Source: a virus
Direction: 5' to 3' (one strand)
Length of the DNA stretch: 40,427 nucleotides
IMG/VR virus record: IMGVR_UViG_3300004369_000043
Span: 1-40,427 of that record
The translations under genes were made by a program, and so were the position numbers. Below, one piece after another: positions 3,925-32,352 of the stretch (position 1 is its first letter; the number at the start of each line of letters is the position of its first letter). A model generated the notes under the pieces. The model was not told the origin of the DNA and searched no databases. It was given only the letters and a program-made list of their open reading frames with translations.

Positions 3925-3957
3925 GTACCGTTCGTCGGCTGGCCGCCATACAAAAAT

Positions 3958-4017
3958 CGTGCCAGCTTTTTGCTAGCAAAAACCGTGCCAGCTTTCCGCT
4001 AGCAAGAAGCGTGCCAG
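3958..4017. repeat. Three direct repeats spaced 26 bp in a divergent promoter region
   Basis: CGTGCCAG occurs at 3958, 3984 and 4010, exactly 26 bp apart. The first two are followed by the similar stretches CTTTTTGCTAGCAAAAA and CTTTCCGCTAGCAAGAA, of which the first contains the perfect palindrome TTTTTGCTAGCAAAAA. The repeats sit between the leftward promoter (3896) and the rightward promoter (4142). They could be regulator operators or a second set of initiator-binding sites. Confidence 0.8.
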
Positions 4018-4141: not shown

Positions 4142-4170
4142 TTGACAACGCTCCTCAAATTGCATATAAT
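4142..4170 (+). promoter_or_regulatory. Consensus sigma70 promoter of the exported-protein island
   Basis: TTGACA (4142-4147), 17 bp, TATAAT (4165-4170), preceded by an A-rich tract that could act as an UP element. The leader of about 20 nt carries AAGAGGA before the ATG at 4197. It is the first rightward promoter of the long plus-strand gene block. Confidence 0.9.
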
Positions 4171-4196: not shown

Positions 4197-4721
4197 ATGA
4201 AAAAACAAATTTTACTCTTGCTCGTCCTAGTCGCCTCGGCCAATGCCGCAGAAGACCCAATCATTACAGAAACAACGAGCACGGTTACAACAGATTCGAC
4301 AACTACACTCAAGTCGCCCCCGCCGTCGGCAATTATTCCGACTATGAACTTTTCCAACTCGGACTTGTGCACGGTGGGAGTAGCTGGAGCAGTTCAGACA
4401 CAAATTCTCGGACTTTCGGCAGGTGCGACGGTACGAGATATGAACTGCGAGCGATTGAAAAATGCCAAAACCCTGTTTGATATGGGTATGAAAGTAGCAG
4501 CAGTTTCTACAATGTGCCAAGACAAACGTGTATTTGACGCAATGATGAATGCCGGGACACCCTGCCCGTATGACGGGCTAATCGGTCCAGACGCAAAAGC
4601 CGCGTGGCTAGCAAATGAAGAGAAACAACCAGGTGCAGAAAAAGAGATGTCAAATGGGAAAAAGACTGCTTTGGGCGGTGCTGGGCTTTTGGGCCTTCTT
4701 GCCGCTCTGCTCGCACTCTGA
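4197..4721 (+). CDS. Exported protein with C-terminal hydrophobic anchor, 174 aa
   Basis: Begins with a clear Sec signal peptide (MKKQILLLLVLVASANA, cleavage near residue 17), then a Ser/Thr/Pro-rich linker and a compact domain with four cysteines (in CTVGVAG, MNCERLK, TMCQD and TPCPYDG) that could form disulphides. It ends in a Gly/Ala/Leu-rich hydrophobic tail. I recognise the MNCERLK domain from other aquatic phages, where it is unannotated and near the same partner genes. It probably acts in the periplasm or envelope. It is first behind the 4142 promoter with a good ribosome-binding site, and its 3' end overlaps the next gene by 68 nt. Confidence 0.85.
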   Translation: MKKQILLLLVLVASANAAEDPIITETTSTVTTDSTTTLKSPPPSAIIPTMNFSNSDLCTVGVAGAVQTQILGLSAGATVRDMNCERLKNAKTLFDMGMKVAAVSTMCQDKRVFDAMMNAGTPCPYDGLIGPDAKAAWLANEEKQPGAEKEMSNGKKTALGGAGLLGLLAALLAL

Positions 4722-5481
4722 AGAGTTATTCGACTCTTCCGTAGTTTCTGCTTTGAGATGGGCAAATGTGTTGCCTCCGCAGGCGGGACTGCAAGTCAAC
4801 AGCGTTTTTTACCGCTACACAACTGAAAAAGCCGTGGAAGACGCTTTGCTGGTTCATGTGCAGAACGAAGACACGGATGGACCTGGGTACATTTTTCGGT
4901 CTACCGATGATTGGACAGGCGTTCCTGGAAATACAATTACTCGATTTATCCCAGTATCTCTAGCTGGCTCACGATTTGGACAAGGCTCAATTCAGACTGA
5001 AGGATTCGGAACGGTTTCAAACCCGACAGTAATTTACAACTATTCATACGATCCGTGTTTCGACCCTCAGTCTGATCCTTCTTGCCCTGGTTACCTACCT
5101 CCATTTGAGCCTCTCGAAATGGAAATGTATGATTCTGATGAGTTTATTCAGGCGGAGCTGGACCGCAAGGCGACTTTAGACCGTACCGACGAAGAAGAGC
5201 GTGACCGTCGGCGTATGCAGGGTATGAAACAGGAAAGGCTTGAAAAAACTCTTTCCGCCGTAAATACCGCAATGCTTACAGCAAATGCAGCAGCAATGGA
5301 AGCTCAGTTAGTTGCAATGAGCGTAATTCCTTCTAGCTACCAGACTACGATAGTTGGTGGCAGATACGACGACTCAGTAGAGTTGCCTAGTAAAAAGCTA
5401 CCCGACAATGCTTCCGGGCGTCGAGTCGGCCTAGCACAGCAATTACTCCATGAGAGAATGGTTGATTCTCAATATGATTAA
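4654..5481 (+). CDS. Exported protein, 275 aa
   Basis: Start taken at 4654 (AAGAGA upstream), because it yields a proper signal peptide (MGKRLLWAVLGFWAFLPLC, cleavage near SHS). A longer in-frame start at 4615 would bury it. The mature protein has a beta-rich domain with two cysteines (YDPCFDPQ and DPSCPGY) and a charged helical C-terminal half that is probably coiled coil (about residues 165-225). The PPQAGLQVNSVFYRY and DDWTG motifs belong to an unannotated phage family as I recall. It lies between two other exported proteins. Role unknown. Confidence 0.85.
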   Translation: MGKRLLWAVLGFWAFLPLCSHSEELFDSSVVSALRWANVLPPQAGLQVNSVFYRYTTEKAVEDALLVHVQNEDTDGPGYIFRSTDDWTGVPGNTITRFIPVSLAGSRFGQGSIQTEGFGTVSNPTVIYNYSYDPCFDPQSDPSCPGYLPPFEPLEMEMYDSDEFIQAELDRKATLDRTDEEERDRRRMQGMKQERLEKTLSAVNTAMLTANAAAMEAQLVAMSVIPSSYQTTIVGGRYDDSVELPSKKLPDNASGRRVGLAQQLLHERMVDSQYD

Positions 5482-5491
5482 GGAGACTTTA

Positions 5492-5986
5492 ATGAAGAAA
5501 GCACTTGCCTTACTAGGTTTAGCAACAGCAAGCACGGTGTTTGCAGTTGATGCGCCCATTACTGGTACAGTAGCCTCTAAATGTGTAATTGTGACTGATA
5601 CAGCAGGTGTGTATGGAAACCCGACGCCCTCTGTCCTTTCTACAGCAGCCGTAGATGGTGGCGTTGAGCCCATCGTTCGCTATGATGTTATTAGTGCAGA
5701 TTTTTATAAAGCTGTAATTTCTACTCCAGATAGTTTTTCTTCTTCTCCGGTCTTAACTGATGTTGTAAACTGGACTGGCTCTGTTTCTGTAGCAGAAGTG
5801 ACAGATCCGCTTATGTCGGCTTACGATACAAATAAGCGTACTTTTAATAACGTAACTGAGTTCGATCTAACTGTAGCGGGTACTGTATGGTTCAAAGTTT
5901 CTTCGCAAGCAGATTATGGAGCAACAAAAGCATTTCCTGGAGGCAACTATGTCTCCGTGGTAAATGCGGAGTGTATTGCGCTTTAA
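5492..5986 (+). CDS. Exported fimbrial-subunit/spore-coat-U-like protein, 164 aa
   Basis: AAGGAG sits seven bases before the ATG, and a textbook signal peptide follows (MKKALALLGLATASTVFA). The mature domain is beta-rich and has one cysteine near its start (SKCVIV) and one near its end (NAECIAL). With the final strand pattern GGNYVSVVNAEC, this recalls the fold of fimbrial subunits or spore-coat-U proteins, in which the cysteines clamp an Ig-like domain. The assignment is by pattern only. Its neighbour downstream looks like a small fimbrial-chaperone-type domain, which strengthens the idea of an exported pilin-like pair. Confidence 0.8.
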   Translation: MKKALALLGLATASTVFAVDAPITGTVASKCVIVTDTAGVYGNPTPSVLSTAAVDGGVEPIVRYDVISADFYKAVISTPDSFSSSPVLTDVVNWTGSVSVAEVTDPLMSAYDTNKRTFNNVTEFDLTVAGTVWFKVSSQADYGATKAFPGGNYVSVVNAECIAL

Positions 5987-6330
5987 TTCTGTGTATGCCC
6001 GCTTATGGGCATCAGTTTATGCCAACCTACCCGAAGCTACAGCCTTCATATGTTGAAGGCGTGCTTCGGGCAAGAATGGAAATATTCAATTCTCGAGAAG
6101 ATATTGAATATTATGAATTTAGTGTACATGACGAAAACTGGGATAAAATTCCTTTTGCTACAACAGAACGTATTCTTTATGTACCTTATTTAAAAAGAAC
6201 TTATGTAGATATATTCATAAAACAAGAAGATAGAGATCGAGCGGTCTACATTTGTTCAATGTCGAAGATTCTAGCAGGAGTACATCAATCTACTGTGGTA
6301 TCTTCTAAAATTTGTTCTAAACTGAAGTGA
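5971..6330 (+). CDS. Exported small beta-sandwich, chaperone-like protein, about 119 aa
   Basis: The start is uncertain. GTG at 5971 gives a short signal peptide (MYCALILCMPAYG) but has a poor ribosome-binding site. ATG at 5995 would remove it. The body has alternating strands (FNSREDIEYYEFSVHDENW, then VPYLKRTYVDIFI) that resemble the N-terminal domain of PapD-type periplasmic chaperones. Two cysteines near the end (YICSM and KICSK) may pair. It overlaps the fimbrial-like gene by 16 nt, suggesting coupled expression. Only one domain is present, about half the size of usual chaperones. Confidence 0.7.
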   Translation: MYCALILCMPAYGHQFMPTYPKLQPSYVEGVLRARMEIFNSREDIEYYEFSVHDENWDKIPFATTERILYVPYLKRTYVDIFIKQEDRDRAVYICSMSKILAGVHQSTVVSSKICSKLK

Positions 6331-6335
6331 GTTGA

Positions 6336-6743
6336 ATGAGATTTCTTTTTCTTTTATTAATGCCTTGTGTAGTGTTGGCAGATACAAGTTCTTTGAACTT
6401 GGCTCTTCCAGCTTCTCCGCAGAGCTTTCAGACCGATAGATTTCGGGCAGGCGACATGGATTGCTCTTCAGCGATCGGTTCTGCTACGAATATCGAGTTT
6501 GGGGTTGTAGGTGTGATTAATGAAGGAAATCAATTTGCTCAACAGCTTCTAGCACAGGGACCAATTTACAACGACGCAAAAGATATTGGCGTCTATGGAA
6601 AGATTACTATTCCAATTGGCGCTCCCAAAGAACGAATCAATTGTAATGTTTTGTACAAACTAGAGCTTGAAAGAAGGCGTCTAGAAATTGCAAAGTTGAG
6701 GCAAGAAGTTGAAACGCTACGTAATCTTAAATTTGAGAATTAG
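6336..6743 (+). CDS. Exported protein with C-terminal coiled coil, 135 aa
   Basis: Signal peptide MRFLFLLLMPCVVLA, then a small domain with cysteines in GDMDCSSAIGS and RINCNVLY, and a C-terminal helix rich in Leu/Glu/Arg heptads (LELERRRLEIAKLRQEVE) that probably forms a coiled coil. The order DVGVY-like strand, IPIGAPKERINC, helix matches a family I recall from marine phages, again without known function. It is five bases downstream of the chaperone-like gene and overlaps the lipoprotein gene by 35 nt. Confidence 0.8.
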   Translation: MRFLFLLLMPCVVLADTSSLNLALPASPQSFQTDRFRAGDMDCSSAIGSATNIEFGVVGVINEGNQFAQQLLAQGPIYNDAKDIGVYGKITIPIGAPKERINCNVLYKLELERRRLEIAKLRQEVETLRNLKFEN

Positions 6744-6927
6744 TTTACTTCTCTTAGCAGGCTGTGCTACTAATCCGCCTTCATTGATTGAGCAGATTAA
6801 ACTAGACACTGCCAAAAAGTATAGAGAAGCCTGTATGAATAGTATGGGCGAAAATATTGACCCTCTTATGCGTGTACAAATTTTGCAACAATGCAACGCC
6901 TGGGCAAGAAAAAAAGCAGGTTTCTAG
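6709..6927 (+). CDS. Small lipoprotein, 72 aa
   Basis: Contains a clear lipobox (LLAGC) that would place the modified cysteine at residue 19 when started at TTG 6709, which has GAGG eight bases upstream. A second TTG at 6733 would give a very short signal. The mature part is about 53 residues, helical and charged, with two more cysteines. It is a membrane-anchored partner for the exported cluster, or could act like a spanin outer-membrane subunit or superinfection-exclusion lipoprotein. The evidence does not decide. Confidence 0.7.
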   Translation: MKRYVILNLRISLLLLAGCATNPPSLIEQIKLDTAKKYREACMNSMGENIDPLMRVQILQQCNAWARKKAGF

Positions 6928-6928
6928 T

Positions 6929-7477
6929 ATGGCTGACTTAGGAGAAGGACTAGATAAAGTTGAGGAAGAAGTAGAGAATCTAAAGAATACTAAGGTTACT
7001 CTTTTTGGTATCTCTATGACTCCCACTACGATTGGAGCTGCTTTTGCTCTTGTAAGCTCTCTGCTTGGAAGTCTCTATGCAGGCTTTGAAATTTATAAAG
7101 ACTACATGGAAATGAAAGAGAAGCTTGCAAATCTTGATGTTGAAGCAATCGAAAGCCGCAATGCACTAATTGAAACAAAGCTGGACGAAGCCATCGAATA
7201 TACACGAGACATTAAATCTGGACTTCGTGATGACATTCTGGCGATTGAAAAGCAGGCTGATCGTGTAGAAGACATGGTTCGTGAAACTGAAAATGACGTA
7301 CGCTCTATCGTTCGTGAAGCAGAAAAGAGCTTTGACGAAAAAAGAGACCGTTTACAGTCTGATTATGACACAGCCGCTTCCCGTCTTCGTGATAATAGCG
7401 ACCGAAAGATCGCCGAGCTAGAAGAACGTTTAAATGCAAAACTTCAGCGAGCCTTAGATAACCCGCTTGCTGAGTAA
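6929..7477 (+). CDS. Membrane-anchored coiled-coil protein, 182 aa
   Basis: The start is ATG 6929, one base after the lipoprotein stop; longer in-frame starts overlap that gene. A short N-terminal helix precedes a membrane span at about residues 28-52 (GAAFALVSSLLGSLYAGFEIY), followed by about 130 charged residues with heptads, a long coiled coil. The lipoprotein upstream plus a one-span coiled coil resembles a spanin-like pair in general layout, but gene order and the exported neighbours also allow a role in an envelope complex. It is the last gene before the TerS promoter. Confidence 0.75.
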   Translation: MADLGEGLDKVEEEVENLKNTKVTLFGISMTPTTIGAAFALVSSLLGSLYAGFEIYKDYMEMKEKLANLDVEAIESRNALIETKLDEAIEYTRDIKSGLRDDILAIEKQADRVEDMVRETENDVRSIVREAEKSFDEKRDRLQSDYDTAASRLRDNSDRKIAELEERLNAKLQRALDNPLAE

Positions 7478-7504: not shown

Positions 7505-7533
7505 TTGACTTTGTAACCTCACCCCCGTATAAT
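7505..7533 (+). promoter_or_regulatory. Promoter of the packaging operon, leaderless arrangement
   Basis: TTGACT (7505-7510), 17 bp, TATAAT (7528-7533), preceded by an A/T-rich tract. The -10 ends seven bases before the ATG at 7541, so transcription should begin at or within about two bases of the start codon. An earlier ATG (7532) lies in the -10 itself and cannot be on this transcript. Confidence 0.85.
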
Positions 7534-7540
7534 GAACGAC

Positions 7541-8002
7541 ATGACAAAAGAACTTGCTGCCATTTCTCCTGAAGGACTTGAAGTTGCAAATACTTATTTG
7601 CAATACGGGAACATTCGTGCTGTATCTCAAGACCTTGGAATTCCAGAGAATCAAGTGGTAGAGGTTTTAAATAAACGTGAAGTAAAGAAGTACATTGATA
7701 ATGTCTATCTAGACATGGGCTATCGCAATAAAAACCTTATCGGAGCTGTTCTTGACGAAATGATTGAGAGCAAACTTGAAGAGGCAAAAGAAACTGGCAT
7801 ATACTCGAGCAAAGATCTAGCGGACTTACTGCAAATGGCACATAAGATGCGTATGGATGAGTTAAAGGCACAAGCTGAACTCGAAAAAGCATCTGCCGCC
7901 AACATTCGCAATCAAACGAATGTTCAAATTAATGAAGCAGTTCCGTTTGGTCAGGGCAATTATGGCAAGCTTATGGAGAAGCTGTTAAAAAATGTCAACT
8001 GA
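7541..8002 (+). CDS. terS: Terminase small subunit (putative)
   Basis: 153 aa. The N-terminal part has a helix-turn-helix pattern (NIRAVSQDLGIPENQVVEVL, about residues 24-43), as expected for DNA recognition at packaging start sites, followed by helices that could mediate ring assembly. The segment SSKDLADLLQMAHKM is typical of terminase small subunits of aquatic phages as I recall. The position ahead of TerL supports the role, although eight small genes and two membrane genes intervene. The start at 7541 is forced by the promoter. It probably has no leader and no Shine-Dalgarno. Confidence 0.75.
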   Translation: MTKELAAISPEGLEVANTYLQYGNIRAVSQDLGIPENQVVEVLNKREVKKYIDNVYLDMGYRNKNLIGAVLDEMIESKLEEAKETGIYSSKDLADLLQMAHKMRMDELKAQAELEKASAANIRNQTNVQINEAVPFGQGNYGKLMEKLLKNVN

Positions 8003-8198
8003 TGAAGTCGAAAAGGTGCGTTCAGAACTGCGTCTTCATGAAATTCAGTGCGAAGAACGTTGGAAAACCAACTTTCAGCGACTGGAGGCCATTGAAGGGC
8101 AGCTTTTGCGATTTGAAAACAGAATGATGGCCGTATCTGGTGCTCTTATTCTTTTTCTCGGCGGGGTCATTGTGACTCTCGTGACTATGCTAGGCTAA
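7992..8198 (+). CDS. Small membrane protein with coiled coil (XhlA/holin-like), 68 aa
   Basis: About 40 charged helical residues followed by one C-terminal membrane span (MAVSGALILFLGGVIVTLVTML). This layout matches XhlA-type and other haemolysin/holin-associated phage proteins, so a role in lysis is possible. The start overlaps the TerS stop by 11 nt and its TAA overlaps the next ATG (TAATG). No endolysin is evident nearby. Confidence 0.7.
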   Translation: MSTDEVEKVRSELRLHEIQCEERWKTNFQRLEAIEGQLLRFENRMMAVSGALILFLGGVIVTLVTMLG

Positions 8199-8350
8199 TG
8201 CCTCTTGTATTTGGCTATAGCAAAGCATCCATTTCAAAAAATATTCGCACAGAAATGCGTGCGGGAAAGTCTCGAAAGCAAGCAGTAGCAATTGCTTTGT
8301 CTACTGCAAGAAAAGCGCGTAAAAAGCGCAAGAAGTCGAGGAGACAATAA
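8198..8350 (+). CDS. Small basic phage protein with KQAxAIAL motif, 50 aa
   Basis: A 50-codon gene with TAATG overlaps at both ends. The motif RKQAVAIALSTARKA is shared by a widespread family of short phage proteins (start MPLV-K-S, a few helices). A very basic tail (ARKKRKKSRRQ-type, many Lys/Arg) suggests nucleic-acid binding. It is the first of a run of tiny lysine-rich genes between TerS and the membrane genes. Confidence 0.75.
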   Translation: MPLVFGYSKASISKNIRTEMRAGKSRKQAVAIALSTARKARKKRKKSRRQ

Positions 8351-8508
8351 TGCTAGCAGGAAAAGGAACATACGGTAAGAAACGTGGTCGTCCGCCCATG
8401 AAGGGTAAGAAAAAGCCTATGAAAGGCAAGAAAAAAGGACTTACTGCAAAGCAGAAAAAGCTTCCGATGGCTCTTCAAAAAGCCATTATGAAACGGCAAC
8501 GCGGCTGA
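8350..8508 (+). CDS. Lysine-rich mini-protein with AT-hook-like motif, 52 aa
   Basis: 20 of 52 residues are Lys or Arg. KKRGRPPMKGK contains a GRP core like an AT-hook, which binds the minor groove of A/T-rich DNA. The ATG overlaps the stop of the previous gene (TAATG). The peptide is likely disordered apart from a C-terminal helix. A role in DNA condensation or as an ejected protein is inferred from composition and from its place in the packaging operon. Confidence 0.65.
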   Translation: MLAGKGTYGKKRGRPPMKGKKKPMKGKKKGLTAKQKKLPMALQKAIMKRQRG

Positions 8509-8546
8509 AGCCGTCACTAGAAGCCGGGAGCTTCTTGGAGACACAT

Positions 8547-8738
8547 ATGATTCATCAAAAACGTGAGACATGGTGGTACACAGGTGCCGGGAGCAAAAAA
8601 GCATTTACTTCCAAAGAGGAAGCAGAGCAATTTGCAGGAGTTAGCAGTGGCACGAAAAAAGAAATCTTCATCGAAGAAGAAGCCAGTACCGACGAACAAA
8701 ACTTTGTATTCGAGAGTGAAAGCGGAAGCGAAGAGTAG
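8547..8738 (+). CDS. Small acidic-tailed protein, 63 aa
   Basis: ATG at 8547 has GGAG seven bases upstream. The N-terminal half (MIHQKRETWWYTGAGSKK, then TSKEEAEQFAG) looks like a folded segment. The C-terminal half is very acidic (ends ESESGSEE). The last 92 nt overlap a second gene in another frame (8647-8823) that encodes a basic protein, so the acidic tail may partly be a by-product of the basic frame. Function unknown. Confidence 0.55.
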   Translation: MIHQKRETWWYTGAGSKKAFTSKEEAEQFAGVSSGTKKEIFIEEEASTDEQNFVFESESGSEE

Positions 8739-8823
8739 ATTTAAAGTCTATCCCTCTGCATACGCAAATGGCTGGCTCGTGCGAACATATAAAGCACGCG
8801 GCGGCAAATATAAAATGGGTTAA
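8647..8823 (+). CDS. Small basic phage protein, YPSAYANG family, 58 aa
   Basis: Starts at GTG 8647 with CAGGAG seven bases upstream. After a Lys/Ser-rich N-terminus it carries AEAKSRFKVYPSAYANGWLV and RGGKY, a conserved core I recall from many phage mini-proteins of unknown role. It overlaps the preceding gene by 92 nt. Probably a nucleic-acid-binding or virion-packaged peptide, by charge only. Confidence 0.7.
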   Translation: MARKKKSSSKKKPVPTNKTLYSRVKAEAKSRFKVYPSAYANGWLVRTYKARGGKYKMG

Positions 8824-8826
8824 ATT

Positions 8827-9084
8827 ATGAAAGCTCTATATATAGGTAATGGGAAAGCCATTCTTACAAAAGATGGCCACACTGATGTAGCTTCTGCTAT
8901 GAAGAGTGTACAAGTAATCATGCAACACTGTGAAATGATTATGGGCGCTTTTAGTGAAATGGATTCGGAAAGCCCGCTTCCCACTTGGTGGACGAATAAA
9001 ATCGCTATCTCCGAGTACGAAGTCGTCTCTGCTGCAAACTACTTGTCTGCGGACATGAGCATGAATGATGGCGAGGAAGCCTAG
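8827..9084 (+). CDS. Small helical phage protein, 85 aa
   Basis: An 85-residue acidic protein that contrasts with its basic neighbours. It has a helical middle part with several Met and a WWTNKIAISEYEVVSAANYLS segment. Similar sequences (a short helix followed by W--KI--------YL) occur as unnamed small proteins near head genes in aquatic phages. The ribosome-binding site is weak. Its stop overlaps the next gene by 20 nt. Function unknown. Confidence 0.65.
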   Translation: MKALYIGNGKAILTKDGHTDVASAMKSVQVIMQHCEMIMGAFSEMDSESPLPTWWTNKIAISEYEVVSAANYLSADMSMNDGEEA

Positions 9085-9352
9085 CGGCGGTCTTACAAAG
9101 TGGTTTAAAGAAAACTGGGTTGATCTATCTCGACCTAAGAAAGGCGGGGGCTTTGAGCCTTGTGGGCGTTCCAAAGCCAAGAGTGGAAAATATCCAAAGT
9201 GTGTTCCAGCAGCAAAAGCTGCACGGATGACACCAGAGGAAAGACGCTCCGCCATTCGTCGTAAACGTGCGGCGGGTAATAAAGGCGGAAAGCCGACGTA
9301 TGTAGCTACATTCGCTCGCAAGAGACGTAGAAATGGTAAGAAAAAGAAGTAG
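9065..9352 (+). CDS. Lysine/arginine-rich small protein with CxxxP motifs, 95 aa
   Basis: Two adjacent ATG codons (9065 and 9068) are possible starts. The core KWFKENWVDLSRPKKGGGFE, then PCGR and YPKCVPAAKAA with two cysteines, then a basic tail, belongs to a conserved family of short phage proteins of unknown function. The C-terminus is almost wholly basic (ARKRRRNGKKKK-type). It lies in the middle of the packaging operon between TerS and TerL. Confidence 0.75.
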   Translation: MMARKPSGGLTKWFKENWVDLSRPKKGGGFEPCGRSKAKSGKYPKCVPAAKAARMTPEERRSAIRRKRAAGNKGGKPTYVATFARKRRRNGKKKK

Positions 9353-9638
9353 CACGCGTAAAAAGCATCCAGCAGTTAAGCGTGCTGGAGTTGCTGGGTT
9401 TAATAAGCCGAAACGTACTCCAGGGCACCCGAAAAAATCGCATATTGTAGTAGCAAAAGAAGGAAGCAAAGTAAAGACAATTCGCTTTGGTCAGCAAGGT
9501 GTAAGCGGCTCTCCTAAGAAAGCTGGGGAAAGTCCTGCATATCGAGCACGCCGTCTGGGATGGAAAGCCCGTCATGCGAAAAATATCGCAAAGGGCAAGA
9601 TGTCAGCGGCATACTGGGCTGACAAGGTGAAATGGTAA
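9333..9638 (+). CDS. Basic small phage protein (KTIRFGQQGVSGS family), 101 aa
   Basis: A 101-residue basic protein with the conserved blocks KPKRTPGHPKKSHIVVAKEG, KTIRFGQQGVSGSP and the C-terminal ARHAKNIAKGKMSAAYWADK. I recall this as a widespread, unnamed phage family found near terminase and portal genes. High charge and no signal peptide suggest a cytoplasmic or virion DNA-binding role. It overlaps the previous gene by 20 nt. Confidence 0.75.
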   Translation: MVRKRSSTRKKHPAVKRAGVAGFNKPKRTPGHPKKSHIVVAKEGSKVKTIRFGQQGVSGSPKKAGESPAYRARRLGWKARHAKNIAKGKMSAAYWADKVKW

Positions 9639-9961
9639 TGGAAGAAGAAATCAAGAAATCAGGATTTCATCCCGCAGACACTAATGGGGATGGACGCGTA
9701 AGTGATGAAGAACAATCAATGTACTTAGAGTTTAAGCGTAAAGAGCTCGAAGACAAAGATTCACAGCGAGATGCAATTCGTAAGATGGCTTGGTTTGCAC
9801 TTTTTGGGCTTCTTGTCTACCCTATTGGCATTGCAATCACTTCAGCTTTTGGTATGGATACTGCGTCAGGTCTTATTGCTGATATTGCTCCTACCTACTT
9901 TGCTTCTATCGCGGTTCTTGTTTCCGCATTCTTTGGTGCTGATGCACTGAAAAAGAGCTAA
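9638..9961 (+). CDS. EF-hand membrane protein, holin candidate, 107 aa
   Basis: The ATG at 9638 overlaps the upstream stop (TAATG); a start two codons earlier is possible. The N-terminus carries a canonical 12-residue EF-hand loop, DTNGDGRVSDEE, with D1, N3, D5, G6, V8 and E12 all in place. A charged helix leads to two membrane spans (about residues 50-70 and 83-101). Two spans and a size near 100 residues fit a class II holin. The calcium-binding loop on one side of the membrane is unusual. Confidence 0.75.
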   Translation: MEEEIKKSGFHPADTNGDGRVSDEEQSMYLEFKRKELEDKDSQRDAIRKMAWFALFGLLVYPIGIAITSAFGMDTASGLIADIAPTYFASIAVLVSAFFGADALKKS

Positions 9962-13099: not shown

Positions 13100-13433
13100 T
13101 ATACGACAAAGGCATAAAGTTCTCGAAGCTGTCGTAATGACAATGATGGAGCAAGGAAAAGTTCTTTCTCGTCATGAGTATGAGCAGCTTGGGATGAATG
13201 TTCAGGTTCGAGCTGGTATTGTTATGAATCATTTTGGAAGCTGGTCTCGCCTGCTTCGCATTATTGAAAACACCATGCCAGAAGAGTGGGCACAGATGCA
13301 GCCGAAAGCTGCTCCTCCTGCGCCAAACCCCGCTCCCGCAGTGGAGAAGAAAGAGGTGCCTAAGCCGGCACCGAAGGCGGAGCCAAAACCTGCTCCCAAG
13401 CCTGCTGCACCAGCAGCAAAGTCGGAAGAGTAA
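13092..13433 (+). CDS. Small head-module protein with HTH-like repeat and Pro/Ala/Lys-rich tail, 113 aa
   Basis: Start at 13092 with AAGGAG nine bases upstream. The first 65 residues are helical and contain LSRHEYEQLG and FGSWSRLLRI, spaced like the small repeat found in homing-endonuclease-associated DNA-binding domains (Y---G ... FGSW). The rest is a low-complexity Pro/Ala/Lys tail (PKPAPKAEPKPAPK). A short DNA-binding protein carried in the head module is possible. No direct functional evidence. Confidence 0.7.
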   Translation: MGSIRQRHKVLEAVVMTMMEQGKVLSRHEYEQLGMNVQVRAGIVMNHFGSWSRLLRIIENTMPEEWAQMQPKAAPPAPNPAPAVEKKEVPKPAPKAEPKPAPKPAAPAAKSEE

Positions 13434-13434
13434 G

Positions 13435-15429
13435 ATGGAAAAGATTTTCAACCTTACTTCCACCTTTAAAGCCTTACAGGAAGACGAGGACGGATCTGTC
13501 CAAATCGCTGGAATGGCAAGCACAAAAGACTTTGATCGTGCTGGTGATTCCATTTCTCCGGAAGCCTGGACAAAGGGTGGACTAAACAATTTTGAAAAGA
13601 ATCCTATCATTCTTTTTAATCATGATTACAATAAGCCGATTGGCCGTGCAACTGGACTGAAAGTCACAGAGAACGGTCTTGAGATGAAGGCAAAGATTAG
13701 CAAGTCTGCTCCCGATTCTGTGGCGCAGTTAGTTAAAGAAGGTATCCTTGGTGCATTTTCCGTTGGTTTCAAAGTCAAGGATGCTGATTACATTAAAGAA
13801 ACTGACGGATTAATGATTAAGGATGCTGAGTTGTTTGAAGTATCGGTTGTTTCCGTACCTTGCAATCAAGCAGCTACTTTTTCTCTGGCGAAATCTTTCG
13901 ACTCCATGACGGAGTATGAAGAATTCAAGAAAACTTTCACCAATCGTGTAGATCTAGCCGGTCAGTCTCTGGCTAAGGATGAAGATTCATTAGTAGCTAG
14001 TGATACACCGGACGGAGCGAACACTGTCGCTCAAAAGGAGATCAAAATGTCGGAGCAAAAAACTCCCGAAATCGACTTGGAAGCTTTTGCTAAGAAGGTG
14101 GCAGAGGAAACTGCTGCTAAAATTGCAATGAAGCAGGCCGAGACGAAGGCAGCCGAAGAGAAGGCAGCCGCAGAAGCCGCTAAGAAGGCGCAGGCAGAAG
14201 CCGAAGCCAAGGCACAACAAGAAGCCGAAGTGAAGCAAGCAGTTGTGACGGGCGTTGAGTCCGGCACCGAGAAGCTTCTCGCAGAAATGCAAGAGAAGAT
14301 GACTGCTCGCGATGCAGACATGGAAAAGATTCTTAACGAGTACAAGCAGCAGCTCGAAGAGAAGACCGAGGAAATCACGAAGATCCGTGATTCCAAGCGT
14401 GTGTTTGCCGATCGTGCTGAGAAGTCCGACATCAGCAAGTGGGGCAAAGATTTTGTCACCGCTCATATGCTCGGTGTGATGACCAACAAAGGTTGGAATA
14501 CTCGTTTTGCTCAAGACCTTCAGCAGAAGGCTGGGATCGACTATACCTCCAACGCAGCAGACATTGATCAGGAAGTTTCTAACCTGATCGAAAAAGAAAT
14601 TATGCGTGAGCTTCGCGTTGCACGTCTTTTCCGCGAAATCCCCGTAAATGGTGCAGCTACTGTGCTCCCCATTCAGGTGGACGCAGCTCCTGCTTCCTGG
14701 GCTACCAATGCAACCTCTGGTAACCTCGAGAATCGTGGTGCTTCTAACAACACCTATCAGCCCAAGCAAGTGATTCTGAACGCTTATCGTCTGATTTCTT
14801 CGACCTTCATGGACAACGAAGTTGACGAGCAAGTGCTTGTGAACCTGATGCCGATGCTGGTCGAGTCCGTTGCTCGTGCCCATGGCCGTGCAGTGGAAGC
14901 CGCTATCCTCAATGGTAACGGTGCTTCCATCACAGGTCTCGACGGGTATGCAGCTGCTTATGATCCTGGTACATTCTCTCTGGCTGCTGGCACGCGCCTG
15001 ACAGCAGCAATGCTTCTCGGCGCTCGCGAAGCAATGGGTAAGTATGGTCTGAGCCCTGCTGAAATGACTTACGTTGTAAGCCAGAACAGCTATTTCGACC
15101 TGCTGAACGATGCAAACTTCCAGACTCTGGATGAAGTTGGTTCCGATCTCGCAGCTCGTGTGACGGGTACCATTGGTGCAGTGTTTGGTACCCCCGTTGT
15201 TGTTTCCGAGGAGTTCCCCGCAGAATCCGCTGGTGCTCCCGCAGCTTTCGCAGTCTACAACCGCAACTATGTGATTCCGCGTCTGCGTGGTGTCTCCGTT
15301 GAGCAAGACTACGAAGTGATGAATCAGCGTCGCGTGATCGTTGCTACTCAGTCTCTTGGCTTTGAAGAAATTCTGGCTGGTGACGGTGCAGGCAACGAGC
15401 CCGCAATCAAGATCGATCACGAGGCATAA
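13435..15429 (+). CDS. Prohead protease fused to scaffold and major capsid protein
   Basis: A 664-aa polyprotein. Residues 1-160 are an HK97-type prohead protease: H63 in LFNHDYNKPIG, S109 in LGAFSVGF and an acidic residue near VSVVSVP. About 205-325 is a long Ala/Glu/Lys coiled coil like a scaffold/delta domain. About 330-664 is an HK97-fold capsid protein. GGAAGAG precedes the ATG at 13435. An in-frame internal start (14047, AAGGAG) would yield scaffold plus capsid alone. Maturation presumably removes protease and scaffold. A terminator follows. Confidence 0.92.
   Translation: MEKIFNLTSTFKALQEDEDGSVQIAGMASTKDFDRAGDSISPEAWTKGGLNNFEKNPIILFNHDYNKPIGRATGLKVTENGLEMKAKISKSAPDSVAQLVKEGILGAFSVGFKVKDADYIKETDGLMIKDAELFEVSVVSVPCNQAATFSLAKSFDSMTEYEEFKKTFTNRVDLAGQSLAKDEDSLVASDTPDGANTVAQKEIKMSEQKTPEIDLEAFAKKVAEETAAKIAMKQAETKAAEEKAAAEAAKKAQAEAEAKAQQEAEVKQAVVTGVESGTEKLLAEMQEKMTARDADMEKILNEYKQQLEEKTEEITKIRDSKRVFADRAEKSDISKWGKDFVTAHMLGVMTNKGWNTRFAQDLQQKAGIDYTSNAADIDQEVSNLIEKEIMRELRVARLFREIPVNGAATVLPIQVDAAPASWATNATSGNLENRGASNNTYQPKQVILNAYRLISSTFMDNEVDEQVLVNLMPMLVESVARAHGRAVEAAILNGNGASITGLDGYAAAYDPGTFSLAAGTRLTAAMLLGAREAMGKYGLSPAEMTYVVSQNSYFDLLNDANFQTLDEVGSDLAARVTGTIGAVFGTPVVVSEEFPAESAGAPAAFAVYNRNYVIPRLRGVSVEQDYEVMNQRRVIVATQSLGFEEILAGDGAGNEPAIKIDHEA
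14035..14049 (+). promoter_or_regulatory. Internal ribosome-binding site and in-frame start inside the capsid polyprotein gene
   Basis: AAGGAG (14035-14040) is six bases before ATG 14047, codon 205 of the polyprotein. Initiation here would make scaffold plus capsid without protease, giving more capsid than protease. It is the best ribosome-binding site in the gene. Confidence 0.75.
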
Positions 15430-25352: not shown

Positions 25353-26089
25353 TGGCATCTTTTAGTGATTACTTAAATATTCTTCCTGATCCGAATAATC
25401 CGATCGGGGATGCAGGACAGGCTCTTGCAGTAGTCTCTGGGGGAAGTCTGGGTCCTGGCTATGCTTCTGTGCAGCTTTCTTCCGAACAGCCTACAATGAT
25501 TGATCGTACAAACTCTGGGCGAGTTGTTGCTCGCGCTCTTGTGGGGCATAAGTGGAATATTCAAATTGGATATAATCCGATGACTCGCACAGAGTTTGAA
25601 CCTATTTATAACTTTCTCTTACACAAACGAGGGCGTCTACGTCCTTTTTATGTTTCTTTGCCTCAGTATCGTCTGCCCCAAGACTCAAGCTTTGCTACTT
25701 TTGTACAAAGTGCAACTCTTACGATTAATGGAGCGCAGACTGCTGGAGTAGATACTTTTGAAATGAGTAGTGCTACAACTCTTTCTGGAGCCCCAAAACC
25801 TGGAGACCTTTTTACAATTACAGATTCGTCTGACTCAAACCATACAAAAGCTTATATGGTTACTCGCGTAGAAACAAATGCAAACTATCAAAGCGGCGAT
25901 CAGCCTTCTACTAGTCAGTACCGAATTCATTTTACTCCTGGCCTTCAGCGTTCTACAACGAACGGAGCAGAAGTAGTTTTTAATAATCCTTTGATTCGAG
26001 TTATTCTTGCTCAAGACATTCAAGAATACTCTCTCGGAACGAACAATTTGTACTCGTTTAGTTTAAGACTTGAGGAGGCACAACCGTAA
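25352..26089 (+). CDS. Distal tail / minor tail protein
   Basis: 245 aa. Position between the tape measure and the tip protein, and a beta-rich layout (RALVGHKWNIQIGYNPMTR, FLLHKRGRLRPFYVSLPQYR, LYSFSLRLEEAQP), fit a Dit-like or lambda L/M-like protein that joins tube and tip. TAATG overlaps at both ends suggest coupling. A specific family is not certain. Confidence 0.7.
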   Translation: MASFSDYLNILPDPNNPIGDAGQALAVVSGGSLGPGYASVQLSSEQPTMIDRTNSGRVVARALVGHKWNIQIGYNPMTRTEFEPIYNFLLHKRGRLRPFYVSLPQYRLPQDSSFATFVQSATLTINGAQTAGVDTFEMSSATTLSGAPKPGDLFTITDSSDSNHTKAYMVTRVETNANYQSGDQPSTSQYRIHFTPGLQRSTTNGAEVVFNNPLIRVILAQDIQEYSLGTNNLYSFSLRLEEAQP

Positions 26090-29000
26090 TGCCAGAGCGT
26101 TCAGTTAATTCAACACTTCGCGCATCTCTACTCAATAATGATGGGTTCGCTTACGCTCACCTTGTAAAATTTGAAAAACCTTCTCTGACTTCACAGATTG
26201 AGGGGGCAATTGCAGGAAAAGCAACAGATTACGCATATATTACTGATGCAGCACAAGACATTGTTTATAATGATGGCTCTAGTGATTCCGAAGGAAATGC
26301 AAACGGTGCCCAGACGTATCGTGCAAATCGTCTCGTAAGTGTCGGCACTGTTTCCGAGACGACGGAAGCCCGTGCTTCTAATATGGCACTGAAGCTTTAT
26401 GCAACGACACTCGGAACAACTGTAGAAGATTCTCTAAATATTTCTTCAGGGTCTCTTGCAGGTACAGTCAATTTTGCCGATGAAGGCTTTCGAGAAGGCG
26501 ATAAAGTTCTTCTTACTGGAGGCGGATCAAATAACGGCAAGTATGTAATTATAAATGCCTTTTCAAATGCAGGAAAGACTCTTGCAGTTACTCCTGTAGA
26601 TACTACTTTGTCTACAGAAAGCTCTGCAACTTATACGCTTTCTTTGGCGTCCGAAGAAATTACTGCGCTGCTATTGAATAAATCTTCTACCGGCTACGCA
26701 TCTTTTCTGAACCGTGAAGTTTATATTTATAAAGCTCATTTGAGTGCAGAAGACAATTCGATTATTGGAGAGCCCTATCTTATTTTCAAGGGCATCGTAT
26801 CGAATGGCACGATTCAAGAAAAACCAGACGGACAGTCTACAGTAAGTTGGAATCTTACTAGTCATTGGGGGGACTTTGTTCAGGTTCGTGGACGTATTAC
26901 ATCCGATGCTTTTCATCGTGCTCTTGATCCTGCAGGGCGTCCTGACGCAGATGGACTGATTCGTCGTGACTATGCAAATGATCTTGGCTTTTTGCACTCT
27001 GAAAAAGCAGTTAACCTTATCTCTACTTATCAGGTAAAAGAAACTCGTTATCGTAAGCAAACAAAAAGCGGGTTTCTTGGATTTAATAAGAAAATCAGCT
27101 TTATTCCTTATGAAGTCGAAGTTGATCGTGAAGTAGACCTACGATTTAATTTACAAGCAAAATATTTGCCAATAGTTTATGGGGTTCAGCGTGTTGACAG
27201 TATTCCTTTCTTTGTTGATACTCTTGTAAATAACCCAAAAGAAGTTTACGTAGGTTATGCCATTGCAGAAGGTCAGCTAGGGGGTATTTATGATATTTAC
27301 TTTGATGATACTCCAAGCATTTGTATCGACAAAAACGATGAAGATGCTCGTGGAGGTTCTCAAACTGCCGAACAAACTATTGATGTAATTTGCTATGGTC
27401 GAGCCGATAAGGGTGCTACTCTTTCCGGAACTTCTTATTATAATGGTACCTTTTCTTCTGGGCTTCCAAGCTTAGTGCTTGGGGGCTCGGCTTGGGATAT
27501 TCAAGAAGCTGGGTATCTGGGAGCAGTTAATCGAAATCTTCCTGATATTGATTTAAGTTTTCTTTCAGGAGCTTCGGCTTCGTCTGTTTCTGGGGCCGGA
27601 ATTACTCACGAGAAAGGAATTAATTTTACGACTCCTATTGATACAAATATTTTCTTTCATGCGGGAAAACCTTACCAGCGTGCAAATTCTGTTTTATCAA
27701 AGTTAGCAGATAGTGCTTCATTTAAAATTCAAAATGATTACTATGATAACAATGCGGATTATTGGGGTCCAAACCATCGTCTTTTAGACACTGCTTATGT
27801 AACAAGTAAATATGTGATCAGCGAAGGAGAGACTCAGATTCCTGCGCTTGATTTTGTTATTCGTGGAAAGCTAATTGATTGTTACAACTATGACTATAGT
27901 TACGCTCCCGACTTACAAAATGACACTTCTCACGATGAAAGTCTTTTTGAGCTTTTTGATACGGTAACTCTGCATAATACGGGAACGAATGCACAGATTG
28001 GTTCTGCGGTTCAAATTATTGATAAGTGGTCTTTTCAAGATGAAAATGGTAGTACCCAGTATCGTTTTCGTTTTTCAGAAGCCCCTTCGTTAGGATCTGT
28101 AAAACAATTTTATATGAAGAATACTAGCGGAGACCGTTGGTATTTTGAGACTTATGATTACTCGCCTAATTCAGGTACAGTACCTGAGACGCTTACAACT
28201 GCAATTGCGACCGCTTCTAATAATGCTACGGTAGGAGTTGATGTTGTATTAGATACTCCTACTTTAGCAGCAGAAATAGCGTTTGAATATGGTTCTTCTC
28301 TAAATTTAAGTGATGGGCAGTTCGACCGCTGGCTAGAAAGTCAGTATGACTATGTAGAGGATGTTGCCACTAATACTTTGCAGCAAATTGGAGTAGCTAA
28401 TTCTTCGACTTTTGCAGCAACTCAAGCTATTCCGGCAGATTCTATTGCTCTTGCTTCTTCTGCAAGCGCCACTGATGATGTGTATATTGGGTATCGTATT
28501 CGTCTTACAAAATTTGATGCGAATGGACTTCCCTATGTTCAAGAGCGCATAATTACAGACTATATTGGCTCTGCAAAAGTAGCGGTTGTAGACAGTAGTT
28601 GGGACGGTGGAAAAACACCAGAAAATGGTGATACCTATGAGATTCTTTCTCAAGGGGATAAGCGTGTATCAATCAATCCTGCAATGCAGTTGCTTGATTA
28701 TCTTACAAGTCCTCGCTATGGAAAGGGCCTTTCTCTTACTGACGATATTTCTCTTGCAAGTTTTCAGGATACAGCACGTCTTTGCGATACTCGTTCAAAT
28801 GTATTTATGCAAGCTTATGCAAACGCAGAGACTGATGGTGTTGATGTAGCTGATGTATTTAAATACGTAACTTCCGCAGGCAAAACGGTATTTCAAGGAA
28901 AGGTAAAAAAACTTACATATCATTTTGCCGCAAATAGCACAGAAGTAGAGTTTGAAGAGGTTGTAGGAAAGATTGCCCGTAAGTGGGAGGACTGGAAAAC

Positions 29001-32000
29001 TTTTGAGACCGGAGATCTTTATTGGTATCAGGGGCGTCTATATGTAGCTTCTACAAATGGTCCTATTAGTAATCCTACTGGGAATAACACACAGGGGACT
29101 ACTACTCTTACAAAAGTTTCTGGTACCGGCAGCGTTACAAACTGGCTATTTAATACTATTAGTGCAAACTTTGATGGTAATCCAATTGTAAAAGCTTATG
29201 ATGTAAACTCTCAAGGATTTAAAAAGACTGGGTATTCACTATATGATGCAGACGATGTAAAATATTGGCGTTATGTGGGATGGGATGCTCAAGAACAACG
29301 ATATGTTACTCGTCATCAGACAAACTTTGTAATTGATACAGCAAAGCCTGTTTTTGACAATATCAATGGAATGCTAAATCATTTCAACGGTATTCTTCGC
29401 TATGCAAACGGACGTTATGAGCTAGATGTAGAGAGTAGTGCGGGTGTTCTCAGCGAAGCACAGTACATTGATACTGATGATATTATTGGCGAAATTAAAA
29501 TTACAGACTCTGGGCAAAAGGGAGTATTTAACAGCGTAAGTGCGGCAATTCCTGACCCTCAGAATCGTTTTGATAATCGGACTGTAACTTTCTTTAATTC
29601 TCAATATTTGAAAGAGGATCGCGGGGTTCCAAAGCAAGGAAATTTTAATCTACCTGGTGTTACAAACTATTTTAATGCACGAATTAATGTAAAACAGTTT
29701 CTAGATCAATCTCGCTATAGTTTAAGCATTAACTTTACAATGATGCCGAAAGGAGTTCTTCTTTTGGCAGGCAGCCTTATATCTATTACTTATCCGCGAT
29801 TTGGATGGACAAATAAGCTATTTCGTATTTCAAATCTAAACTTTACTTCTGAATGCTTGGTGCAGGTTACAGCCGAAGAGCACAATGATGATGCTTATAT
29901 TATTTCTGGGTTCAATAAAGAATACTATAATAATTATGAGCCTGCTCCAATTGTAAATATTGCTCCTGCTGCTCCTAGTGGCCTAACTGCAACTGGAAAT
30001 GAGCGCGGAGGAATTACTCTTAACTGGACAAATGGAGCTAACTTTAATCCTACGACATTTGTTACAGAAATTTGGAGAAGTTCTACAAACAATCGTGCAA
30101 ATGCAACTCTTATTGGGACTACAAAGGGTACGACATTTACAGATGCTGTTTCTGTAGAAGGTCCAGTAACTCGATATTACTGGATTCGCCACTCGATTTC
30201 CGTTCTCTCACAGCTTTCTTCTCAGGCAGCTCCTCGAGAGGTATTCTCGACTTGGTACCCGCTCTCTGCAACTGCTGGAGAAAGTGGTACTTCGGTTGCC
30301 CTGTTAGATGCTACTAGTGTAATTGTCTCTAGGGCTTCTGTCGCTCTTCCTTCTGATCTAGCAGGATCTATTATTGACTTTTCAGACTCTGGAACAGATA
30401 TTACGGTTACACAGGGCACAACAAAATTTGAGTATGACGCCAGCGTTACTCCAGCAGCCAACACCTTTAGTGTAGTTGCTGTTTCTCCTAGCAACATAAT
30501 TACATTCGATCCCTCGCCTACAACGGTAAATGACAGTAGTGGTAATCCTACTATTCGGCGATATGATAATGTAAGTGCTATGACGGCTTCAACCACTGGA
30601 GCAGTTATATTTACAATAACTGTAAATTATGGGAATGGGCTAAGTTCTATATATGAACTTATTCAAAGCTTTACAAAAGTATCCGAAGGACAAGTGGGAG
30701 AGACCGGTCCTCAAGGCGCAACAGGTATACAAGGAGTGCAAGGTGCCCAAGGGCCTGCAGGGGATACAGGTCCTATCGGGGATACGGGCCCTCAAGGGGT
30801 TCAAGGTGCTCAAGGGCCTATAGGGAATACTGGTGTTCAAGGTGTTCAAGGCGCTCAAGGTAATACCGGTGCTCAAGGTGTTCAAGGGCCTATAGGTGAT
30901 ACTGGTATTCAAGGCCCTCAAGGTAATACCGGTGTTCAAGGTGCTCAAGGGCCTATAGGGAATACTGGTATTCAAGGTGTTCAAGGCCCTCAAGGTAATA
31001 CCGGTGTTCAAGGTGTTCAAGGGCCTATAGGTGATACTGGTATTCAAGGCGCCACAGGACCTCAAGGCGCCACAGGTGTTCAAGGTGTTCAAGGACCTAT
31101 CGGAAATACCGGAGCCCAAGGTGCACTAGGGGCTACAGGAGTTCAAGGCGTTCAAGGCGTTCAAGGCCCTGCGGGTGCTACAGGTACTGCTGGTAATCAA
31201 ACCTTTACTTTCTATTCTACAGCTCCTGATGATACCCTGAATTCTTCTCCTACTATTAATGCTTGGAGTAGCGGTGGGGCTTATACTCAAGGAAATGTTG
31301 TTTCTTATTCTGGGGGAGTTTATGCTGCCCTACTTAATCATACGGGAAGAACAACAGCTCCTTCTACCGACACAAGCTATTGGGTAAGAATATATGCGGG
31401 CGCAAATAATTCTTCTAATACTGCTGATTTTACTCGGCTTACTCCTACAATTTTTATTAGTACCAGTGGATACTGGTTAACCGTTGAGGGAGGACAGACA
31501 GACCCTCAATATAGATGGTATATTGATGCAACAGTAGCCGGAGTTACAAATATTAAGTGGACCATTGCAGCTCTTGAGCAAAACAGTGCTGCAATTACTC
31601 AGGATGATTTTCAAGACCCTGTATTGATAAAAGGGCAAAAAGGAGAGCAAGGAACTCAAGGTGCAACAGGGGCCCAAGGCCCTCAAGGTGCTACAGGTGT
31701 TCAAGGTATTCAAGGACCGCAAGGTAACACAGGTGTGCAGGGTCCTCAAGGTAATACAGGTATTCAGGGTGTTCAGGGTGTTCAGGGCCCTCAAGGTAAT
31801 ACAGGTGCTCAAGGTGCTCAAGGTCCTCAAGGTAATACAGGTGTTCAAGGGCCTCAAGGCCCTCAAGGTAATACTGGTGCACAGGGTCCCCAAGGTAACA
31901 CAGGTATTCAGGGTGTTCAGGGCCCTCAAGGTAATACAGGTGCTCAAGGTGTTCAAGGTCCTCAAGGGGCTACAGGACCCCAAGGAGCTCAAGGGCCCCA

Positions 32001-32352
32001 AGGAGCTCAAGGTGCTGTCGGGGCCACGGGTGTAACAGGTGTAACAGGACCTAGCGGCCCTGTTGGGGAGCCAGGAACGGCTATTGCATTTGATACAGAC
32101 GCGACAGTAGATAGCGATGCTGGAAAAACTAGTTTAGTACAAGCAGTAAAGGGATCCACTGTTGCCAATAATGATATTTATTGGCACGTTCGCACAGATC
32201 AGGTGTGGTATTATTCTTCTGGAAGTTGGATACAGACAGATAGAATTTCTCGAACAGGAAGTAACTCTATTACACTAGATGGAGGAACACAAAGAATTAT
32301 TGTTACTGACGGATCTGGCGTAATTCGAGTGAAGATAGGAAATCTTGCATAA
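26089..32352 (+). CDS. gpJ-like tail tip / host-specificity protein with collagen-like repeats
   Basis: 2087 aa. Residues 1 to about 1280 are the tip core with many beta segments as in gpJ-type hub and adhesion proteins. About 1285-1380 is a fibronectin-III-like domain (PAAPSGLTATGNERGGITLN, YYWIRH). Residues 1540-1704 are 55 uninterrupted Gly-X-Y triplets (30706-31200). About 1724-1770 is a carbohydrate-binding-like segment (WSSGGAYTQGNVVSYSGGVY). Residues 1849-1998 are 50 more triplets (31633-32082), and a short C-terminal beta domain ends it. It probably contacts the host receptor. The Gly-X-Y coding DNA is itself repetitive, which invites slippage and length change. Confidence 0.9.
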   Translation: MPERSVNSTLRASLLNNDGFAYAHLVKFEKPSLTSQIEGAIAGKATDYAYITDAAQDIVYNDGSSDSEGNANGAQTYRANRLVSVGTVSETTEARASNMALKLYATTLGTTVEDSLNISSGSLAGTVNFADEGFREGDKVLLTGGGSNNGKYVIINAFSNAGKTLAVTPVDTTLSTESSATYTLSLASEEITALLLNKSSTGYASFLNREVYIYKAHLSAEDNSIIGEPYLIFKGIVSNGTIQEKPDGQSTVSWNLTSHWGDFVQVRGRITSDAFHRALDPAGRPDADGLIRRDYANDLGFLHSEKAVNLISTYQVKETRYRKQTKSGFLGFNKKISFIPYEVEVDREVDLRFNLQAKYLPIVYGVQRVDSIPFFVDTLVNNPKEVYVGYAIAEGQLGGIYDIYFDDTPSICIDKNDEDARGGSQTAEQTIDVICYGRADKGATLSGTSYYNGTFSSGLPSLVLGGSAWDIQEAGYLGAVNRNLPDIDLSFLSGASASSVSGAGITHEKGINFTTPIDTNIFFHAGKPYQRANSVLSKLADSASFKIQNDYYDNNADYWGPNHRLLDTAYVTSKYVISEGETQIPALDFVIRGKLIDCYNYDYSYAPDLQNDTSHDESLFELFDTVTLHNTGTNAQIGSAVQIIDKWSFQDENGSTQYRFRFSEAPSLGSVKQFYMKNTSGDRWYFETYDYSPNSGTVPETLTTAIATASNNATVGVDVVLDTPTLAAEIAFEYGSSLNLSDGQFDRWLESQYDYVEDVATNTLQQIGVANSSTFAATQAIPADSIALASSASATDDVYIGYRIRLTKFDANGLPYVQERIITDYIGSAKVAVVDSSWDGGKTPENGDTYEILSQGDKRVSINPAMQLLDYLTSPRYGKGLSLTDDISLASFQDTARLCDTRSNVFMQAYANAETDGVDVADVFKYVTSAGKTVFQGKVKKLTYHFAANSTEVEFEEVVGKIARKWEDWKTFETGDLYWYQGRLYVASTNGPISNPTGNNTQGTTTLTKVSGTGSVTNWLFNTISANFDGNPIVKAYDVNSQGFKKTGYSLYDADDVKYWRYVGWDAQEQRYVTRHQTNFVIDTAKPVFDNINGMLNHFNGILRYANGRYELDVESSAGVLSEAQYIDTDDIIGEIKITDSGQKGVFNSVSAAIPDPQNRFDNRTVTFFNSQYLKEDRGVPKQGNFNLPGVTNYFNARINVKQFLDQSRYSLSINFTMMPKGVLLLAGSLISITYPRFGWTNKLFRISNLNFTSECLVQVTAEEHNDDAYIISGFNKEYYNNYEPAPIVNIAPAAPSGLTATGNERGGITLNWTNGANFNPTTFVTEIWRSSTNNRANATLIGTTKGTTFTDAVSVEGPVTRYYWIRHSISVLSQLSSQAAPREVFSTWYPLSATAGESGTSVALLDATSVIVSRASVALPSDLAGSIIDFSDSGTDITVTQGTTKFEYDASVTPAANTFSVVAVSPSNIITFDPSPTTVNDSSGNPTIRRYDNVSAMTASTTGAVIFTITVNYGNGLSSIYELIQSFTKVSEGQVGETGPQGATGIQGVQGAQGPAGDTGPIGDTGPQGVQGAQGPIGNTGVQGVQGAQGNTGAQGVQGPIGDTGIQGPQGNTGVQGAQGPIGNTGIQGVQGPQGNTGVQGVQGPIGDTGIQGATGPQGATGVQGVQGPIGNTGAQGALGATGVQGVQGVQGPAGATGTAGNQTFTFYSTAPDDTLNSSPTINAWSSGGAYTQGNVVSYSGGVYAALLNHTGRTTAPSTDTSYWVRIYAGANNSSNTADFTRLTPTIFISTSGYWLTVEGGQTDPQYRWYIDATVAGVTNIKWTIAALEQNSAAITQDDFQDPVLIKGQKGEQGTQGATGAQGPQGATGVQGIQGPQGNTGVQGPQGNTGIQGVQGVQGPQGNTGAQGAQGPQGNTGVQGPQGPQGNTGAQGPQGNTGIQGVQGPQGNTGAQGVQGPQGATGPQGAQGPQGAQGAVGATGVTGVTGPSGPVGEPGTAIAFDTDATVDSDAGKTSLVQAVKGSTVANNDIYWHVRTDQVWYYSSGSWIQTDRISRTGSNSITLDGGTQRIIVTDGSGVIRVKIGNLA
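30706..31200 (+). repeat. Collagen-like repeat block 1 (55 Gly-X-Y triplets)
   Basis: The coding DNA is a near-regular 9-bp pattern (Gly codon plus two), with many GGTGTTCAAGG-type units. It encodes GVQ, GPQ, GNT, GAQ and GPI triplets. Collagen-like trimers in phage fibres form stiff stalks. The repeat lets copy number vary. Confidence 0.95.
31633..32082 (+). repeat. Collagen-like repeat block 2 (50 Gly-X-Y triplets)
   Basis: A second, separate run of Gly-X-Y triplets in the same protein, rich in GPQ-GNT pairs and ending GVT-GVT-GPS-GPV-GEP. It is set off from block 1 by a non-repetitive region of about 145 residues that carries the carbohydrate-binding-like segment. Confidence 0.95.

Follow-up and report, generated by a model that had tools for sequence, protein, structure and literature searches.

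A phage gene cassette of exported proteins with predicted pilin-like and chaperone-like folds

Related envelope systems and layout of the locus

Chaperone-usher pili (FimC/FimA, PapD/PapA, CfaA/CfaB and the archaic CsuC/CsuA-B) are built from genes in which a PapD-type fold adjoins an exported pilin-like beta-sandwich. Phage superinfection-exclusion proteins are envelope proteins exported from the infected cell and, to our knowledge, the described examples consist of one or two small proteins. Among marine phages, the closest precedent is csgGF, an incomplete set of curli pore genes in the pelagimyophages and Melnitz; the roles suggested for it are lysis timing and 'sibling capture', and clumping was not seen (PMC9004378). 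Two-component spanins of the Rz/Rz1 kind combine a type II inner-membrane protein with a lipoprotein (PMC6139136).

The cassette described here shares features with each of these. It has the chaperone-usher neighbourhood of a predicted PapD-type fold and an exported, predicted pilin-like beta-sandwich, but it contains no usher, its chaperone-like protein corresponds to domain 1 only, sequence-profile similarity is absent, and it is carried by phages together with four extra families. Like csgGF, it would be a partial bacterial fibre-export system in marine phages, and both sets are thought to act in the host envelope; however, csgGF is a pore without a subunit (PMC9004378), whereas the cassette has a predicted subunit and chaperone without a known pore, and the families differ. 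The topology of its last protein resembles that of an i-spanin and it includes a small lipoprotein, but this lipoprotein is not conserved and relatives have a true Rz/Rz1-type pair elsewhere. Its proteins would be exported to the envelope like those of superinfection exclusion, but as a six-gene unit. No description of a phage-encoded chaperone-pilin set was found in the open-licence literature, a search that left subscription papers mostly outside.

The sequence examined is an IMG/VR virus record of 40,427 bases (hereafter the window), in which early genes run leftward from about 3.8 kb and late genes run rightward. A promoter sits at the early/late junction and is followed by seven genes, g1 to g7 (Table 1), and then by the gene for the terminase small subunit (phrog_3802, 1.2e-40; start at 7532 or 7541). 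A preliminary description of this DNA had pointed to a consensus promoter, four or five exported proteins, a lipoprotein, a membrane-anchored coiled coil and a position directly before the packaging genes. All of these features were recovered: the promoter matches the consensus at every position, g1–g5 carry putative signal peptides, g6 and g7 are the lipoprotein and the coiled coil, and the small terminase gene adjoins the 3' side of the cassette. Signal peptides were called by a crude script requiring an N-terminal hydrophobic stretch and a small-residue cleavage motif, which all of g1–g5 and none of the 31 other late genes of the window passed. The cysteine pairs from which periplasmic folding had been proposed are present in all aligned members of g3 (C31/C161, 34/34), g4 (C90/C110, 37/37) and g5 (C43/C103, 35/35), and would form disulphides in the periplasm.

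Table 1. Coordinates of the cassette and of other features in the window
Feature	Positions	Strand	Description
Repeat copies	3945..4010		tandem, hairpin-forming, GTGCCAGCTTTTTGCTAGCAAAAAC type
Sigma-70 promoter	4142..4170	+	TTGACA-17-TATAAT; 12/12 consensus match; dedicated to cassette
g1	4197..4721	+	signal peptide, Thr/Ser-rich linker, conserved 4-Cys domain, C-terminal Leu-rich hydrophobic tail
g2	4654..5481	+	signal peptide, beta-rich domain with two conserved Cys, charged helical part; ATG start
g3	5492..5986	+	exported beta-sandwich, predicted pilin-like, invariant Cys 31 and 161
g4	5971..6330	+	exported, predicted single-domain PapD/FimC-like chaperone; start uncertain, GTG 5971 probable
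g5	6336..6743	+	signal peptide, Cys-flanked amphipathic beta-hairpin, C-terminal coiled coil; phrog_37374
g6	6733..6927	+	small lipoprotein, lipobox LLLLAGC; TTG 6733 start likely
g7	6929..7477	+	one N-terminal transmembrane segment and about 120-residue coiled coil, end LQRALDNPLA
Promoter-like site	7505..7541		TTGACT-17-TATAAT, near-perfect; would serve small terminase gene
Basic-protein cluster	8198..9638		small Lys/Arg-rich proteins between small and large terminase genes
EF-hand-like protein	9632..9961		EF-hand-like motif (DTNGDGRVSDEE) and two transmembrane segments
Protease-capsid frame	13234..15429		prohead-protease-like N terminus apparently fused to HK97-type capsid protein
PF05065 match	14563..15363		within the protease-capsid frame
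Tail protein	26089..32352		2087 aa, two long collagen-like GxxGxQG repeat blocks
Glycosyltransferase-like gene	33851..34999		among tail genes

The cassette promoter is not a chance match in the window, since a perfect 12/12 site lies at most 250 nt 5' of g1 in 21 of 60 loci; the site in L009 has the identical -56 position. Neighbouring genes of the cassette are tightly spaced, and g2 begins inside the end of g1, an overlap of about 60 bases. The repeat copies just upstream of the cassette promoter score as two minus-strand terminator-like sites (3960-3978 and 3986-4004) and could be stops for antisense transcription or operator sites. At the other end, the first ATG of the terminase small-subunit gene coincides in part with the -10 box of the promoter-like site, and transcription from that site would give a leaderless message from ATG 7541.

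Predicted folds of g3 and g4 and the accompanying families

The AF2 model of g3 has a pLDDT of 90.6 (alignment A1). Its best Foldseek match was CfaB (E 1.6e-3), and FimF, FimG, the PapG pilin domain and CsuA/B were among the rest; VIA-align gave a mixed list of Ig-like folds with a best Z of 7.9, and in this as in the other structure match lists the absence of a family does not exclude that family. With Z at most 7.9 and a mixed list, 'pilin-like' is a lean rather than a proof, and the fold is not unique to pilins. In nearly all members the mature protein starts with I-x-G-x-V-x-S-x-C, a stretch that looks like a donor strand, and the family as a whole is well conserved, with a mean column identity of 62%. 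Assignment of g3 to the SCPU pilins by sequence was rejected, the alignment not rising above shuffled controls.

In g4 there is no ATG before the signal peptide, and a GTG is the probable start. Pilus chaperones (PapD, FimC, SfaE, SafB or Caf1M) made up all of the first 12 Foldseek matches of its AF2 model (pLDDT 87.8, alignment A2), and VIA-align superposed 99 residues on domain 1 of Caf1M with a Z of 10.6, SafB and FimC being similar and MSP domains coming next (Z 9.7). The protein stops at the position of FimC residue 114; K112 is among the last residues, and this position is K or R in 37 of 37 members. The protein g4 is predicted to have a single-domain periplasmic pilus-chaperone fold, a PapD-type likeness in fold only and to domain 1 only. 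By sequence, g4 could not be assigned to PapD_N, since the profile comparison did not exceed shuffled columns. More generally, PDB and Pfam profile searches with alignments A1–A4 gave no meaningful match. The two models agree with the initial view of the locus as holding a fimbrial-like subunit and a chaperone-like partner.

Homologues of g1 are found in Pelagibacter phages and roseophages (phrog_20531), and its hydrophobic tail is present in 52 of 53 marine members. A large protein of 450-610 aa with a long acidic stretch is encoded close behind the g1 homologue in the Pelagibacter phages L006, L002, L001 and L004, and the two are possibly a partner pair related to g1-g2. Homology of g2 itself to the large protein that follows g1 in pelagiphages (HTVC115P gp53) was considered and rejected (20% only); g2 is marked by a C-terminal motif, AQQLLHxxMVxxQY, in 26 sequences. 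The marker gene of the system is g5, with homologues in Vibrio and Klebsiella phages. Its two cysteines, found in 35 of 35 members, flank the hairpin, which is followed by a heptad-like helix. Comparison of g5 with the TolC/OEP domain gave an hhalign score of 21.7 against a shuffle maximum of 16.3, at a probability of 1.9%, and by its sequence pattern g5 may be a pore. The lipoprotein g6 is an accessory: it occurs in two of the 82 loci of a first batch, in four close relatives of the second batch and in G022, the relative described below. No signal peptide is present in g7, which has a homologue in HTVC115P gp49.

Distribution among marine, Vibrio and enterobacterial phages

A scan of IMG/VR with g5 returned 343 related stretches, and a scan with the g5 alignment at least 580. 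The order g1-g2-g3-g4-g5-g7 was unbroken in every uncut locus (59/59 in the first batch and 58/58 in the second), counts that are not independent, since the two batches share loci and near-identical contigs occur among them; all other fetched loci end at a contig border. The expectation that the same families would be grouped in other aquatic phages was thus confirmed, and a lack of co-occurrence is ruled out. Terminase genes lie downstream of the cassette, upstream of it or elsewhere, depending on the locus, so the cassette should not be seen as a mere section of the packaging region. It is also independent of capsid type: among 18 carrier records, an HK97-type capsid protein (PF05065) occurs in five, one of which is the window, and a T4-type gp23 (PF07068) in three. 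An usher (PF00577) was found in none of these 18 records of up to 160 kb, with a positive E. coli control, and the cassette is therefore not a chaperone-usher system; a known exit channel other than an usher was likewise not found. No clear bacterial equivalent of the cassette was found, and the few matches in bacterial assemblies may be phage contigs. In the records examined, annotation of the cassette genes goes no further than 'hypothetical'.

A core of g3, g4 and g5, without g1, g2 and g7, is found in Vibrio phages, about 180 of which carry g5. The products 0077, 0078 and 0079 of the Vibrio T5-like phage pVp-1 match g3, g4 and g5 with hhalign probabilities of 95, 94 and 98%, and in phages of this type the genes next downstream of the core encode a small lipoprotein, a T-type holin (PF11031, 1.6e-46) and an M15 endolysin. 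Some 24 enterobacterial-type records, mostly jumbo phages, have g5 with g4-like and g3-like neighbours, in the order g4-like, g5, g3-like in Klebsiella jumbo phages (Eowyn, Kp24, Miami) and in Erwinia pEp_SNUABM_01. In these Klebsiella and Erwinia phages g5 is certain (99.8%), and the sequence match for g4 is weak (86%, with the signal peptide counted in). Eowyn gp39, which adjoins its g5 homologue, is the fourth structural match of the g4 model in BFVD. What links the g3-like proteins of the enterobacterial records to g3 is only their position, their signal peptide and their Cys pattern, and sequence homology to g3 was not detectable. Together with hundreds of marine viral contigs, these records make up the carriers of g5, and the cultured ones (Vibrio pVp-1 and Brizo types; Klebsiella Kp24, Miami and Eowyn) make the function directly testable.

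Proposed working of the cassette and alternative explanations

We regard as evenly balanced the proposition that the island is one operon giving the infected cell a phage-encoded envelope assembly. What the sequences show is that the island has a promoter of its own, is passed on as an unbroken unit, and encodes proteins bearing secretion or membrane-anchor signals. Judging from the folds, g4 would be a periplasmic chaperone of one domain, with pilin-like g3 as the subunit that it folds or caps. Sequence patterns suggest that g5 might form oligomers by way of hairpin and coil and serve as a base or exit in the outer membrane, and that g1, g2 and g7 might anchor the whole in the inner membrane and span the periplasm. 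With no usher present, the product of g3 would be a short fibre, or a layer, located within the outer membrane or on its surface. Such a structure would most likely serve to change the infected-cell surface. This final function is guesswork, the options being ordered by how well they fit, with surface change or superinfection exclusion ahead of lysis timing and lysis timing ahead of adhesion; superinfection exclusion is our first choice of function, although taken on its own it is somewhat unlikely.

On this explanation the cassette is neither a part of the virion nor the endolysin/spanin set. Its place in the late region before the terminase and the pilin-like fold of g3 would suit particle decoration or fibre proteins, but this is very improbable given the signal peptides and conserved Cys pairs, the presence of the same cassette beside unrelated capsid types, and the location of the core among non-structural genes in jumbo phages. 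A lysis role, which had also been raised, fails in the canonical sense. Among g1–g7, no Pfam or PHROG match to an endolysin exceeded noise. G022, a 98-kb near-complete relative with the same late gene order and the cassette at 53.4-56.6 kb, has its lysis set far from it, at 29.9-31.1 kb on the other strand: a GH24-type endolysin (phrog_7, 8.6e-23), an Rz-like inner-membrane protein and an o-spanin (phrog_812, 1.3e-14). G010 likewise encodes an endolysin, an i-spanin and an o-spanin outside the cassette, and pVp-1 is listed with its own separated spanins (PMC6139136). Since close relatives have a separate endolysin and Rz/Rz1-type spanin pair, the cassette is not a canonical lysis set. Within the window g7 and g6 do fit the pattern of a type II inner-membrane protein and a lipoprotein, but no lipoprotein stands beside g7 in about 80 of 82 loci; with the lipoprotein rare and a separate pair in relatives, g6 and g7 were rejected as the phage's spanins in general.

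A subtler form of this idea is that the exported proteins act from the periplasm to regulate the holin or, when infection ends, help to break the outer membrane, alongside the endolysin and spanins. A role in lysis timing has been proposed for phage-encoded curli pores (PMC9004378), and the idea would suit the i-spanin-like topology of g7, the lipoprotein g6, the Vibrio T5-like phages in which core and small lipoprotein lie directly 5' of the holin and endolysin, and the lysozyme near the g1 homologue in ctXG6705 and CRP-810. We nevertheless consider it unlikely, because G022 and G010 have complete lysis sets elsewhere, most loci lack the lipoprotein, and the core of jumbo and Erwinia phages is not beside annotated lysis genes. 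An adhesive function, in which g3 fibres on infected cells hold neighbours close so that progeny meet new hosts, would draw on the folds of g3 and g4 and on the 'sibling capture' reported as an idea for phage curli genes, with which, however, no clumping was seen (PMC9004378). It is improbable, as the cassette has no adhesin-like variable protein, g3 being well conserved, and no usher.

If the envelope assembly is real, lytic-type phages direct into the host envelope a multi-protein set with a dedicated chaperone-like protein that is not among the usual lysis genes. We propose tentatively, and at less than even confidence, that this is a previously undescribed envelope machine: a chaperone-subunit assembly without an usher, with g5 as exit or base, that rebuilds the infected-cell envelope and is found in T4-like, T5-like, HK97-type and jumbo phages. 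That chaperone-assisted, usherless subunit assembly in phages deserves a class of its own is a minority prospect of the same order.

Further features of the window were noted outside the cassette. The cluster of small basic proteins recurs in related loci. The EF-hand-like protein is conserved in 46 related loci and is a possible holin. In G022 the arrangement of the protease-capsid frame is identical, and the tail protein is repetitive too (about 84-86 kb). The DNA of the glycosyltransferase-like gene is 87% identical to that of G022, much closer than most surrounding genes, and a recent exchange of this gene is likely.
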